From NCBI RefSeq assembly GCF_028868675.1, contig NZ_JAGWUA010000009.1:1-49627 (forward strand): 49,627 bases of DNA, in the 5' to 3' direction. Every line of letters starts with the position of its first letter. Position 1 is the first letter of the stretch. The DNA is from Bradyrhizobium sp. (GTDB lineage Bacteria > Pseudomonadota > Alphaproteobacteria > Rhizobiales > Xanthobacteraceae). The translations under genes and the position numbers were made by a program. A model generated the notes under the pieces. That model did no database searches. It was not told where the DNA came from and saw only the letters and a program-made list of their open reading frames with translations. Below, one piece after another: positions 16,371 to 19,613 of this stretch.

Positions 16371-17336
16371 ATGTCCGCTCCGATCCATGCCAAGGTCGTC
16401 ATCATCGGCTCCGGACCCGCCGGCTACACGGCAGCGATCTATGCGGCACGCGCGATGCTTGAGCCGATCCTGATCCAGGGCATCCAGCCGGGCGGCCAGC
16501 TCACCATCACCACCGACGTCGAGAACTATCCGGGTTTTGCCGACGTGATCCAGGGCCCCTGGCTGATGGAGCAGATGGAGAAGCAGGCGACCCATGTGGG
16601 GACGCAGATCAAGACCGATCTGGTCACCCGGCTCGAGACCGCGCAGCGGCCGTTCCGCATCACCTGCGACAGCGGCGACGTTTACCTCGCCGAGACCGTG
16701 ATCCTCGCCACCGGCGCCCAGGCGCGCTGGCTCGGCATTCCCTCGGAAGAGAAGTTCAAGGGCTTCGGCGTCTCCGCCTGCGCCACCTGCGACGGCTTCT
16801 TCTACCGCGGCAAGGAGGTCGTGGTGGTCGGCGGCGGCAACACCGCGGTCGAGGAGGCGCTGTTCCTGACCAATTTCGCGAACCAGGTGACGGTCGTGCA
16901 TCGCCGCGACCATTTCCGCGCCGAGCGCATCCTGCAGGACCGCCTGTTCAAGCATCCCAAGGTCAAGGTGATCTGGGACAGCGCCATCGACGAGATCTGC
17001 GGGGCCGAGAACCCAAGCAAGGTCACCCATGTCCGCCTGAAGAACGTCAAGACCGGCGCGCTCGGCGAGATCAAGGCCGACGGCGTCTTCATCGCCATCG
17101 GGCATGCGCCGGCGACCGAGCTCGTGGCCGGACAGGTCAAGCTGAAATCGTCGGGCTATGTCGAGGTCGCAGCGAACTCGACCGCAACCTCGGTGCCGGG
17201 CCTGTTCGCCGCCGGCGACGTCGCCGACGAGACCTATCGTCAGGCCGTGACAGCCGCGGGCCTCGGCTGCATGGCGGCGCTCGAAGCCGAGCGATTCCTG
17301 GCCCTGCGCGCCAGCGAGCGCGCGGCAGCGGAATGA
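16371..17336 (+). CDS. trxB: thioredoxin-disulfide reductase
   Basis: VVIIGSGPAGYTAAIYAARA, CATCDGFFYRGKEVVVVGGGNTAVEEALFLT. Confidence 0.96.
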   Translation: MSAPIHAKVVIIGSGPAGYTAAIYAARAMLEPILIQGIQPGGQLTITTDVENYPGFADVIQGPWLMEQMEKQATHVGTQIKTDLVTRLETAQRPFRITCDSGDVYLAETVILATGAQARWLGIPSEEKFKGFGVSACATCDGFFYRGKEVVVVGGGNTAVEEALFLTNFANQVTVVHRRDHFRAERILQDRLFKHPKVKVIWDSAIDEICGAENPSKVTHVRLKNVKTGALGEIKADGVFIAIGHAPATELVAGQVKLKSSGYVEVAANSTATSVPGLFAAGDVADETYRQAVTAAGLGCMAALEAERFLALRASERAAAE

Positions 17337-18265
17337 AGATCATGCCCAGAGCACGCGACGGATTTACCGATATGGACTGGGACAAGCTGAAGGTGTTCCA
17401 CGCGGCTGCGGAAGCGGGCAGCTTCACGCATGCCGGCGAGCAGCTCGGCCTGTCGCAATCGGCCGTGTCACGCCAGGTCTCGGCCCTGGAGCAGGAGCTC
17501 TCGGTCTCGCTGTTCCATCGCCACGCCCGCGGCCTCATCCTGACCGAGCAGGGCGACTTGCTGTTCCGCACCGCGCATGACGTGTTCATGCAGCTGCAGG
17601 CGGCACGCGCCAAGCTGACCGACAGCCGCGAGCGGCCGAGCGGCGACCTCAAGATCACCACCACGCCCGGTGTCGGCATCAACTGGCTGATCCCGCGGCT
17701 CGGCGAGTTCACCGCGCTCTATCCGGAGATTCGCATCTCGCTGATCGTGACCGACGAGGAGCTCGATCTGTCGATGCGCGAGGCCGACGTCGCGATCCGG
17801 ACCCGCAAGCCGACGCAGCCGGACCTCATCCAGCGCAAGCTGTTCGCGATGGGTTTTCACGCCTACTGCTCGCCGGAATACATCAAGCGTTTCGGCACGC
17901 CGCGGACTCTGGAAGAACTCGACTCTCACCGCATCATCACGCTGGCCGACGGCAGCTTCGCGCCGCATCTGCAGAACCGCAACTGGCTGGTGGAAGCCGG
18001 GCGCAACGGCTCGGGCCCGCGCGAAGCCTACTTCCGCGTCAACAACATCCTCGGCCTCGTGCGCGCCTGCCAGCAGGGCCTCGGCATCGCCGCGCTGCCG
18101 GATTACCTCGTCGAGGACAACAGCCGGCTCGTGCAGCTGTTCGGCGAATCTGACTCGATCCAGCTCGACACCTACTTCGTCTATCCGGAGGAGTTGAAGA
18201 CGGTCGCGCGCGTGCAGGTATTCCGCGATTTCGTGGTGAGCAAGGCGCAGCGCTGGCCGTCCTGA
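17333..18265 (+). CDS. LysR-family transcriptional regulator
   Basis: MDWDKLKVFHAAAEAGSFTHAGEQLGLSQSAVSRQVSALEQELSVSLFHRHARGLILTEQG; 4-nt overlap with trxB. Confidence 0.93.
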   Translation: MKIMPRARDGFTDMDWDKLKVFHAAAEAGSFTHAGEQLGLSQSAVSRQVSALEQELSVSLFHRHARGLILTEQGDLLFRTAHDVFMQLQAARAKLTDSRERPSGDLKITTTPGVGINWLIPRLGEFTALYPEIRISLIVTDEELDLSMREADVAIRTRKPTQPDLIQRKLFAMGFHAYCSPEYIKRFGTPRTLEELDSHRIITLADGSFAPHLQNRNWLVEAGRNGSGPREAYFRVNNILGLVRACQQGLGIAALPDYLVEDNSRLVQLFGESDSIQLDTYFVYPEELKTVARVQVFRDFVVSKAQRWPS

Positions 18266-18332
18266 TTTCCGCATGACTGACATGCGGCCTCGGCGGTTGC
18301 TGCGGGGCGCTCGGCGACCCCATACTGCTTGC

Positions 18333-18468
18333 ACGCTGAGCGCTCGCGTTGCGCATTTGTCCCCCTCCTCCAGTGGCGCGGGAGCTCAGTAATCCCTCTT
18401 GGAAGGTGATTGTGTCGGCCTCACGTGGCCAATACCTAAGCCGGGCTCCTTCGGGCCCGGCTTTTTTT
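18333..18468 (+). ncRNA. candidate ~136-nt structured sRNA (four hairpins, anti-SD loop)
   Basis: Promoter-like TTGCTG-18-CATACT upstream; 14-bp stem GCTGAGCGCTCGCG/CGCGGGAGCTCAGT with loop containing CTCCTCC; hairpins AATCCCT..AGGTGATT and GGCC..GGCC; intrinsic terminator. Confidence 0.6.
18439..18468 (+). terminator. intrinsic terminator
   Basis: AGCCGGGC-TCCTTCGG-GCCCGGCT-TTTTTT. Confidence 0.85.
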
Positions 18469-18534
18469 CGTCTCGATCGGCTTTCGCGTTCCGCGCGCAT
18501 TGACAGTTCCGCGCATCCCGCGCATCATTTCACA

Positions 18535-18609
18535 ATGATCACGATGTCGTGCACCGCAGTCTCGAAAAAAGCTCCCCGTCCGGGGATCAGGGATATTTGC
18601 GCGCGCTAG
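18535..18609 (+). CDS. possible 24-aa leader peptide MITMSCTAVSKKAPRPGIRDICAR
   Basis: ATG at 18535 to TAG at 18607-18609, upstream of attenuator-like terminator; tandem AAA AAA codons at 18565-18570; no clear SD identified. Confidence 0.3.
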   Translation: MITMSCTAVSKKAPRPGIRDICAR

Positions 18610-18633
18610 AAACTTCCGCTTCGTCGCGATCCC

Positions 18634-18662
18634 AAAACCCCGCCGCCTGGACGGGGTTTTTT
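18634..18662 (+). terminator. intrinsic terminator in the leader of the dapA-family gene
   Basis: AAAACCCCG-CCGCCTGGA-CGGGGTTTT-TT. Confidence 0.8.
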
Positions 18663-18704
18663 CATGCCCGTCTCCGGCCGGCTTCACCGAAAAGGAGATG
18701 AGAG

Positions 18705-19613
18705 ATGACCGATCTGGGACAGCATTTGCAGGGCCTCTGGCTGCCGCTCGTGACGCCGTTTCGCGACGGCGTGCTCGACGAGACATCGCTGCGGCGGCTG
18801 ACGCGCCACTACACCAGGCAGCCGGTCGACGGCTTCATCCTCGGGGCGACCTCGGGCGAAGGCATGACGCTGCGGTCCGGCGAGCTCGAGCGACTCGTCG
18901 CGACCGTGCGCGAGGCGATGGCGACGGATGGCCGCAACGTTCCGCTCTGCCTCGGACTGTCGGGCGCCGACACGCAGCGGCTGAAGGATCTGCTGGATGA
19001 GACCGCGGACTGGCCGATCGACGGCTATCTGATCGCGAGCCCCTATTACCTGCGGCCGTCGCAGCGCGGCCTGGCCGCGCATTTCGAGGCGCTCGCCGAC
19101 CACGCCGCCTGGCCGCTCGTGCTCTACAACATTCCCTATCGCACCGGGGTCAACATCGACAACGATACGCTGCTGCGGCTTGCCGGACATCCCAACATCG
19201 TCGGGCTGAAGGATTGCGGCGCGAGCCGCGAGCGGACCATCGCGCTGCTGCGCGACCGGCCGGCCGGCTTCCGCGTGCTGACCGGCGAGGATGCGCACGC
19301 CCACGACGCGCTGAGCGACGGCGCCGACGGCGCCATCCTGCTCTCCGCGCATCTGGAGACCGCAACCTTCGCCGCGGTGCGCAGCGAGCTGAAGCGCGAC
19401 AACGCCGAGGCGGCGCTGGCGCGCTGGCGAGAGGTCAGCGAGTTGACGCGGCTGTTGTTCGCCGAACCGAGCCCGGCGCCGGCAAAGTACTGGCTGTGGC
19501 GCACCGGACTGATCGACAGCGCCGAGGTGCGCCTGCCGATGGTCGAGGTGGGCGCGGAGCTGGCCGGAACGCTCGACCGCGAGATCGCGCGGCGGGTGGC
19601 CGTTGCCGCGTAG
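18705..19613 (+). CDS. dihydrodipicolinate synthase/N-acetylneuraminate lyase family protein (DapA-like)
   Basis: LWLPLVTPFRDGVLDETSLRRLTRHY...GFILGATSGEGMTL...VLYNIPYRTGVNI...VGLKDCGASRERT. Confidence 0.9.
   Translation: MTDLGQHLQGLWLPLVTPFRDGVLDETSLRRLTRHYTRQPVDGFILGATSGEGMTLRSGELERLVATVREAMATDGRNVPLCLGLSGADTQRLKDLLDETADWPIDGYLIASPYYLRPSQRGLAAHFEALADHAAWPLVLYNIPYRTGVNIDNDTLLRLAGHPNIVGLKDCGASRERTIALLRDRPAGFRVLTGEDAHAHDALSDGADGAILLSAHLETATFAAVRSELKRDNAEAALARWREVSELTRLLFAEPSPAPAKYWLWRTGLIDSAEVRLPMVEVGAELAGTLDREIARRVAVAA

Follow-up and report, generated by a model that had tools for sequence, protein, structure and literature searches.

Ribosome-mediated transcription attenuators are known for the trp, his, leu, ilv, phe and thr operons in proteobacteria. 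To our knowledge, lysine is not among the amino acids with textbook ribosome-mediated attenuation, and the RNA control known for it is the lysine riboswitch (L box). This riboswitch senses lysine directly, without a leader ORF, and is terminator-based in some bacteria. Here we analysed a leader that precedes a dihydrodipicolinate synthase (DHDPS, dapA)-family gene of Bradyrhizobium sp., within a window of 49,627 nucleotides (contig NZ_JAGWUA010000009.1, the whole stretch of DNA under study). Like the operon attenuators named above, it combines a short ORF rich in codons for the end product with mutually exclusive helices 1:2, 2:3 and 3:4 and a terminator just before the structural gene, and in both a stalled ribosome favours 2:3. 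Unlike them, it uses Lys codons and belongs to a dapA paralogue. With the L box it would share the lysine-responsive control of lysine-pathway genes, but it matches no Rfam riboswitch.

Two rhizobial leaders invite direct comparison. In Sinorhizobium meliloti, the ORF of trpL / rnTrpL is leaderless and lies at the transcription start, and the attenuator releases a small RNA (PMC7298713). The trpL / rnTrpL leaders of S. meliloti and Bradyrhizobium come from the same bacterial order as the dapA2 leader, but they carry Trp codons, precede trpE and encode peptides without sequence similarity to the one described here. SEP5 of S. meliloti is an ORF in a 5'UTR with six Thr and three Lys codons that is translated in Ribo-seq, precedes a gene called aspartate dehydrogenase and was suggested to be a leader peptide (PMC10117765); it differs from the dapA2 leader in its mixed Thr/Lys codons and in the gene it precedes. 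In the open-access papers searched, we found no earlier report of a Lys-specific ribosome-mediated attenuator. With at least 57 sampled genomes spread over several families of a single order, a conserved Lys-codon attenuator would close this gap for lysine. Computation revealed the architecture of the leader, its conservation and covariation, the placement of its codons and its predicted switching, and we consider it very probable that the locus is a ribosome-mediated transcription attenuator which senses lysyl-tRNA and controls DapA2.

Layout of the dapA2 leader

The LysR-type gene (17333-18265) and the DapA2 gene (18705-19613) are separated by 439 bases, which comprise two distinct units, one at about 18330-18470 and one at 18500-18704. 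The second unit and the gene that follows it contain these features:

18500-18528, + strand: predicted promoter (TTGACA 18500-18505, 17-nt spacer, CATCAT 18523-18528)
18535-18609, + strand: predicted leader-peptide ORF of 24 codons, MITMSCTAVSKKAPRPGIRDICAR, with stop codon TAG at 18607-18609; frame kept in orthologues
18565-18570, + strand: regulatory Lys-Lys codons AAA AAA, codons 11-12 of the ORF
18573-18577, + strand: region 1 (UCCCC), 5' arm of the protector hairpin 1:2
18581-18605, + strand: region 2, composed of CGGGG (18581-18585) and the distal arm GGGAUAUUUGCGCGCG (18590-18605); pairs with region 3
18622-18642, + strand: region 3, composed of the distal arm CGUCGCGAUCCC (18622-18633) and CCCCG (18638-18642); identified by the swap test described below
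18634-18662, + strand: intrinsic terminator 3:4 with U tail, present in the minimum free energy (MFE) fold
18649-18656, + strand: region 4 (GGACGGGG), 3' arm of the terminator, with region 5 as alternative partner
18667-18675, + strand: region 5 (CCCGUCUCC), able to pair either with the dapA Shine-Dalgarno region or with region 4
18694-18700, + strand: Shine-Dalgarno region of the DapA2 gene (GGAGAUG), conserved, with region 5 as its partner when the terminator forms
18705-19613, + strand: DHDPS (dapA)-family gene 'DapA2', 302 aa (Pfam PF00701, 163 bits)

An initial annotation of this DNA had already pointed to several of these elements. AAAAAA (18565-18570), GCT, CCCCGTCC (18574-18581), the ORF, the terminator and the ATG at 18705 are all where it had placed them. 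The local alternative fold UCCCC-GUCC-GGGGA and the terminator that it had described both appear in the MFE fold. The terminator sits between the leader ORF and the DapA2 gene, ends 42 nt before the ATG of the latter and is conserved in the aligned orthologues.

A promoter search returned one promoter-like site, compared to a mean of 0.1 in shuffled sequences. When 70 orthologous regions were aligned, promoter, ATG, A6, stem arms, terminator and Shine-Dalgarno region proved conserved and the spacers variable. The best-conserved columns include TTGACA, the -10 CATCAT, the ATG, A6 and the terminator, with TTGACA and most of the -10 being nearly invariant. The distance from the -10 to the ATG is 6 nt in nearly all orthologous leaders. 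Transcription is predicted to start at 18535, the A of the ATG, and since the ATG follows the -10 by only 6 nt, the 24-codon ORF is probably leaderless. The conserved promoter and its spacing argue for a putative start of transcription upstream of the terminator. Neither this promoter nor the pairing of regions 2 and 3 had been noticed in the first reading.

The leader region is kept in 146 of the 149 genomes of the genus. From one genome (L039, G048:C27) the DapA2 gene and the leader are both absent, and only a decayed ORF start is left after the lysR gene.

Two other classes of leader were considered and rejected. For the lysine riboswitch (L box), no Rfam riboswitch was matched at gathering level in the window or up to E = 5 in 18250-18720; for a T-box leader, there was likewise no Rfam match at gathering level or at E up to 5.

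The first intergenic unit (18330-18470, + strand) is a nearly invariant RNA-like element that contains CCCCCUCCUCC, has its own terminator (18438-18463) and folds better than shuffled sequences (z -3.9). About 14 genera of the family carry it, frequently at a site other than dapA2, and a search of Rfam at gathering level gave no matching family. It is probably a conserved small RNA.

Covarying helices and Lys codons

Two segments of the leader serve in more than one helix: CGGGG (18581-18585) of region 2 doubles as the 3' arm of hairpin 1:2, and CCCCG (18638-18642) of region 3 is the 5' arm of the terminator. We compared the duplex energy of each helix with its own partner to that with partners from other leaders, a swap test which does not rely on column alignment, in 31 leader clusters at about 80% identity. 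Cognate partners were better for 1:2 (z -4.8), 2:3 (z -3.9), 3:4 (z -5.1) and the distal arm of 2:3 alone (z -4.6), where the z-scores, here and below, are not strict probabilities because the leaders are related by descent. Reversed-sequence controls gave no cognate preference in the 31 clusters, and pairing of the 5' end of the ORF with region 2 or region 3 was weak or absent in the swap test. The distal arm covaries: it reads GGGA:UCCC in the window, GAUCG:CGAUC and GGAUU:AAUCU occur as well, and other forms are found outside the genus. Thus, the antiterminator is the covarying helix of region 2 (18581-18605) with region 3 (18622-18642).

The initial annotation had proposed a different antiterminator, formed by A6/CCCC (18565-18581) and the terminator 3' arm (18649-18662), with reversed or ligand-dependent control. 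The underlying 14-bp complementarity between A6/CCCCGTCC and GGACGGGG/T6 is literally present. However, it is not cognate-specific, as swapped partners pair better than the natural ones (z +3.2, 31 clusters), and several genera without A6 still keep Lys. Ligand-dependent control is further opposed by the lack of a match to any Rfam riboswitch family. We therefore give this arrangement almost no credence; the complementarity of regions 1 and 4 probably follows incidentally from the conservation of two arms rich in C and G. What stands of the earlier proposal is attenuation coupled to translation, with Lys codons, on a dapA-family gene; its antiterminator does not.

The Lys codons are tied both to the reading frame and to the helices. 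All 67 leaders that have A6 keep it in frame with the ATG, and the distance between the two varies by multiples of 3 (e.g. 27, 30, 33, 36 or 45 nt); the length from the stop codon to the U-tract varies freely among leaders. Deviations from A6 or ATG include one leader with AAA AAG, which is synonymous, one with GAA AAA and one with ACG for ATG. Lys lies next to stem 1 in all clusters and in 97 of 97 leaders. Among the six codons next to stem 1, it is the only residue found in all 31 clusters, and Lys codons account for 185 of 582 codons there versus 36 of 1778 elsewhere. Each of the 31 leader clusters has a Lys codon 16-18 nt upstream of region 2.

Since nearly every Bradyrhizobium leader retains A6, one might take the poly-A run for a slippage site or a generic pause site which senses the rate of translation and not lysine. 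Outside the genus, however, the run is broken (KNR, KNK, KHR, KR, SKSK) and at least one Lys codon is in place: the peptides read SKNRA, YKNRA, MKHRA, SKSKASA, KNK or SKRAA, and genera without A6 show AAA AAC, AAA CGC or AAA UAC yet keep Lys. In addition, sister leaders before thrS (see below) use Thr codons. A role of the run as such is therefore extremely unlikely, and we retain the reading of these codons as Lys sensors.

Loss of either the ORF or the alternative pairing from orthologous leaders had been named as evidence against attenuation, and the orthologue comparison did not refute the attenuator. As for conservation of the ORF itself, frame and Lys are kept, but the remainder of the peptide is weakly conserved (pN/pS 0.7-0.85, a ratio confounded by RNA structure and by the mixture of two length classes); this we counted against the attenuator.

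Computed switching and proposed mechanism

We computed the switch for 97 leaders on a transcript that ends before region 4, with region 3 already made. The probability of 2:3 averaged 0.05 in the absence of a ribosome, rose to 0.96 when one was stalled on Lys and was 0.03 when one had reached the stop codon. When the stall position was scanned along the ORF, the probability of 2:3 exceeded 0.8 only for stalls located about 14-21 nt upstream of the GGGG in region 2, and the effect was gone from 9 nt on. According to these stall computations, the Lys codons are placed such that a stalled ribosome covers region 1 and leaves region 2 free. The initial annotation had noted that a ribosome stalled on Lys would block its antiterminator, the opposite of the usual logic. 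This objection arose because the wrong helix was taken as antiterminator; a Lys-stalled ribosome frees 2:3. With the helix derived from comparison, the puzzling reversed logic turns into the classical one, in which lysine shortage would lead to stalling, antitermination and expression.

Two results of the folding computations were counted against the attenuator. Switching was robust for a downstream ribosome footprint of 10-14 nt, the footprint being an assumption, but with 16 nt a stall on the last Lys codon stopped working. Furthermore, most leaders favour the terminator at equilibrium even when a ribosome is stalled, which means that switching has to depend on folding during transcription.

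From the layout and the computed switching we infer the transcription start, ribosome stalling, termination and the direction of regulation as follows. Transcription would begin at 18535, with the ribosome trailing RNA polymerase on the leaderless ORF. If charged tRNA-Lys is plentiful, the ribosome would translate the ORF to its stop codon, which would let hairpin 1:2 and terminator 3:4 form, and a transcript of about 128 nt with its end at about 18662 would be released. If lysine is short, the ribosome would stall at codons 11-12 and cover region 1, such that region 2 could pair with region 3 while region 4 is still to be transcribed. The 2:3 helix would then block the terminator and the DapA2 gene would be transcribed. 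Region 4, freed in this way, may pull region 5 off the Shine-Dalgarno region and aid translation.

Several computations bear on this last step. Pairing of region 5 with the Shine-Dalgarno region is cognate-specific (z -3.1, 31 clusters). Pairing of region 4 with region 5 is cognate-specific among the 97 leaders (z -5.4) but not significant in the 31 clusters (P=0.10). Forcing 2:3 raised the computed openness of the Shine-Dalgarno region from 0.04 to 0.23, with a rise in 30 of 31 clusters. These values are suggestive of a coupling between the switch and the dapA ribosome-binding site through a further helix. In its full form, a chain of five helices (1:2, 2:3, 3:4, 4:5 and 5:SD) would relay the stall to the ribosome-binding site, and in the bacterial order other aspartate-family genes (asd, thrS) would be run by such a design on Thr/Lys or Thr codons. 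We regard this extension as tentative and somewhat doubtful. If it holds, lysine shortage would both permit transcription of dapA2 and open it for translation, and read-through transcripts made without antitermination would remain silent.

DapA2 orthologues and sister leaders

DapA2 scores 196.6 bits against NCBIfam TIGR00674 (dapA), short of the cut-off of 206, and the genome has a separate standard DapA (C148); both facts were counted against the attenuator. In an alignment with this DapA and a solved DHDPS, the catalytic residues (Thr, two Tyr, Arg and Lys) are all present in DapA2. The protein carries Gly, Ser, Leu, Ala and Arg at positions Ser48, His53, His56, Asn80 and Glu84, which in DHDPS numbering we take to be the residues that bind inhibitory lysine. 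The standard DapA retains these residues and, by model search and by reading of its upstream region, lacks such a leader. Together, the changed residues of DapA2 and the unchanged standard enzyme, which has no such leader, point to a feedback-insensitive second enzyme controlled by the supply of charged tRNA-Lys. Most likely, DapA2 serves as an auxiliary dihydrodipicolinate synthase, one not subject to feedback inhibition by lysine and produced under lysine shortage. The attenuator would give an unassigned dapA paralogue a function, as a backup enzyme predicted to escape this inhibition.

Training of the covariance model had used A6 leaders, a possible source of bias, so we also picked orthologues by protein alone. 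Close DapA2 proteins in the order sample scored above 440 bits, with the next matches at 213. In this sample, 18 genomes had a close DapA2; the covariance model detected the leader in 17, and in the 18th it was read by eye (MLYSINILPKNKPLL...). The leader was also found in 49 of the 49 family-sample genomes with a close DapA2, 42 by the model and seven by eye, the latter all from one genus and with a single Lys. Without double counting, 57 of 57 protein-chosen close orthologues have the leader directly before the gene, including 8/8 outside the family. In three distant DapA relatives (G192, G220 and G241; 342-367 bits) the leader is absent. The leader is thus restricted to the clade of close DapA2 proteins.

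This association also bears on whether 18535-18662 is a stand-alone small RNA gene that acts in trans, with dapA2 expressed independently. Such a gene would fit the unit's own promoter and terminator, and the trp attenuator of S. meliloti does release a trans-acting RNA and peptide (PMC7298713). However, the leader always lies directly before DapA2 in the 57 protein-chosen orthologues, it is lost together with DapA2 in L039, its Lys codons are tied to region 2, and region 5 pairs with the dapA Shine-Dalgarno region. We thus consider an independent small RNA very unlikely and favour the attenuator, which may have a trans role in addition.

In the contig search, the best 80 matches were all close Bradyrhizobium-like records, and a search of the plasmid collection gave no match. 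One record titled 'Frankia sp. RB7' (L176, JAUEPE010000011.1) holds a Bradyrhizobium-like dapA2 locus with 78% protein identity and is probably mislabelled.

The covariance model of the leader also matches Thr/Lys-rich leaders (e.g. MTTSTKATAKTKAPSGGSGAVRA) before the aspartate-semialdehyde dehydrogenase gene (asd) in Bradyrhizobium genomes. In the genome studied here, an attenuator-like Thr/Lys leader, MFATTKRTMKTTKPSGASGGVRA, precedes asd at G000:C285:2817-2947 (L137). The asd leader is the likely Bradyrhizobium counterpart of SEP5. A Thr-Thr-Thr leader precedes a short threonyl-tRNA synthetase gene (thrS) in L116, L118, L120 and L122, and in the stall scan of the thrS leaders a ribosome held at the Thr codons shifts the fold towards the antiterminator. 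The codons of the sister leaders match the product of each gene, as attenuation predicts. The attenuator would join dapA2, asd and thrS of Bradyrhizobium into one set of tRNA-charging sensors.

In L118, the 3' arm of the terminator, CGGACGGGG, also has a perfect complement, CCCCGUCCG, a short distance downstream. A related leader (e.g. MINVVRITNRKHMTRFRWAMEGVVR) precedes a DUF1127-containing small protein in L123, L125, L128 and L134. For the asd and DUF1127 leaders, the stall scan was less clear-cut than for dapA2 and thrS; the regulatory codons of the DUF1127 leader are perhaps those for Arg.
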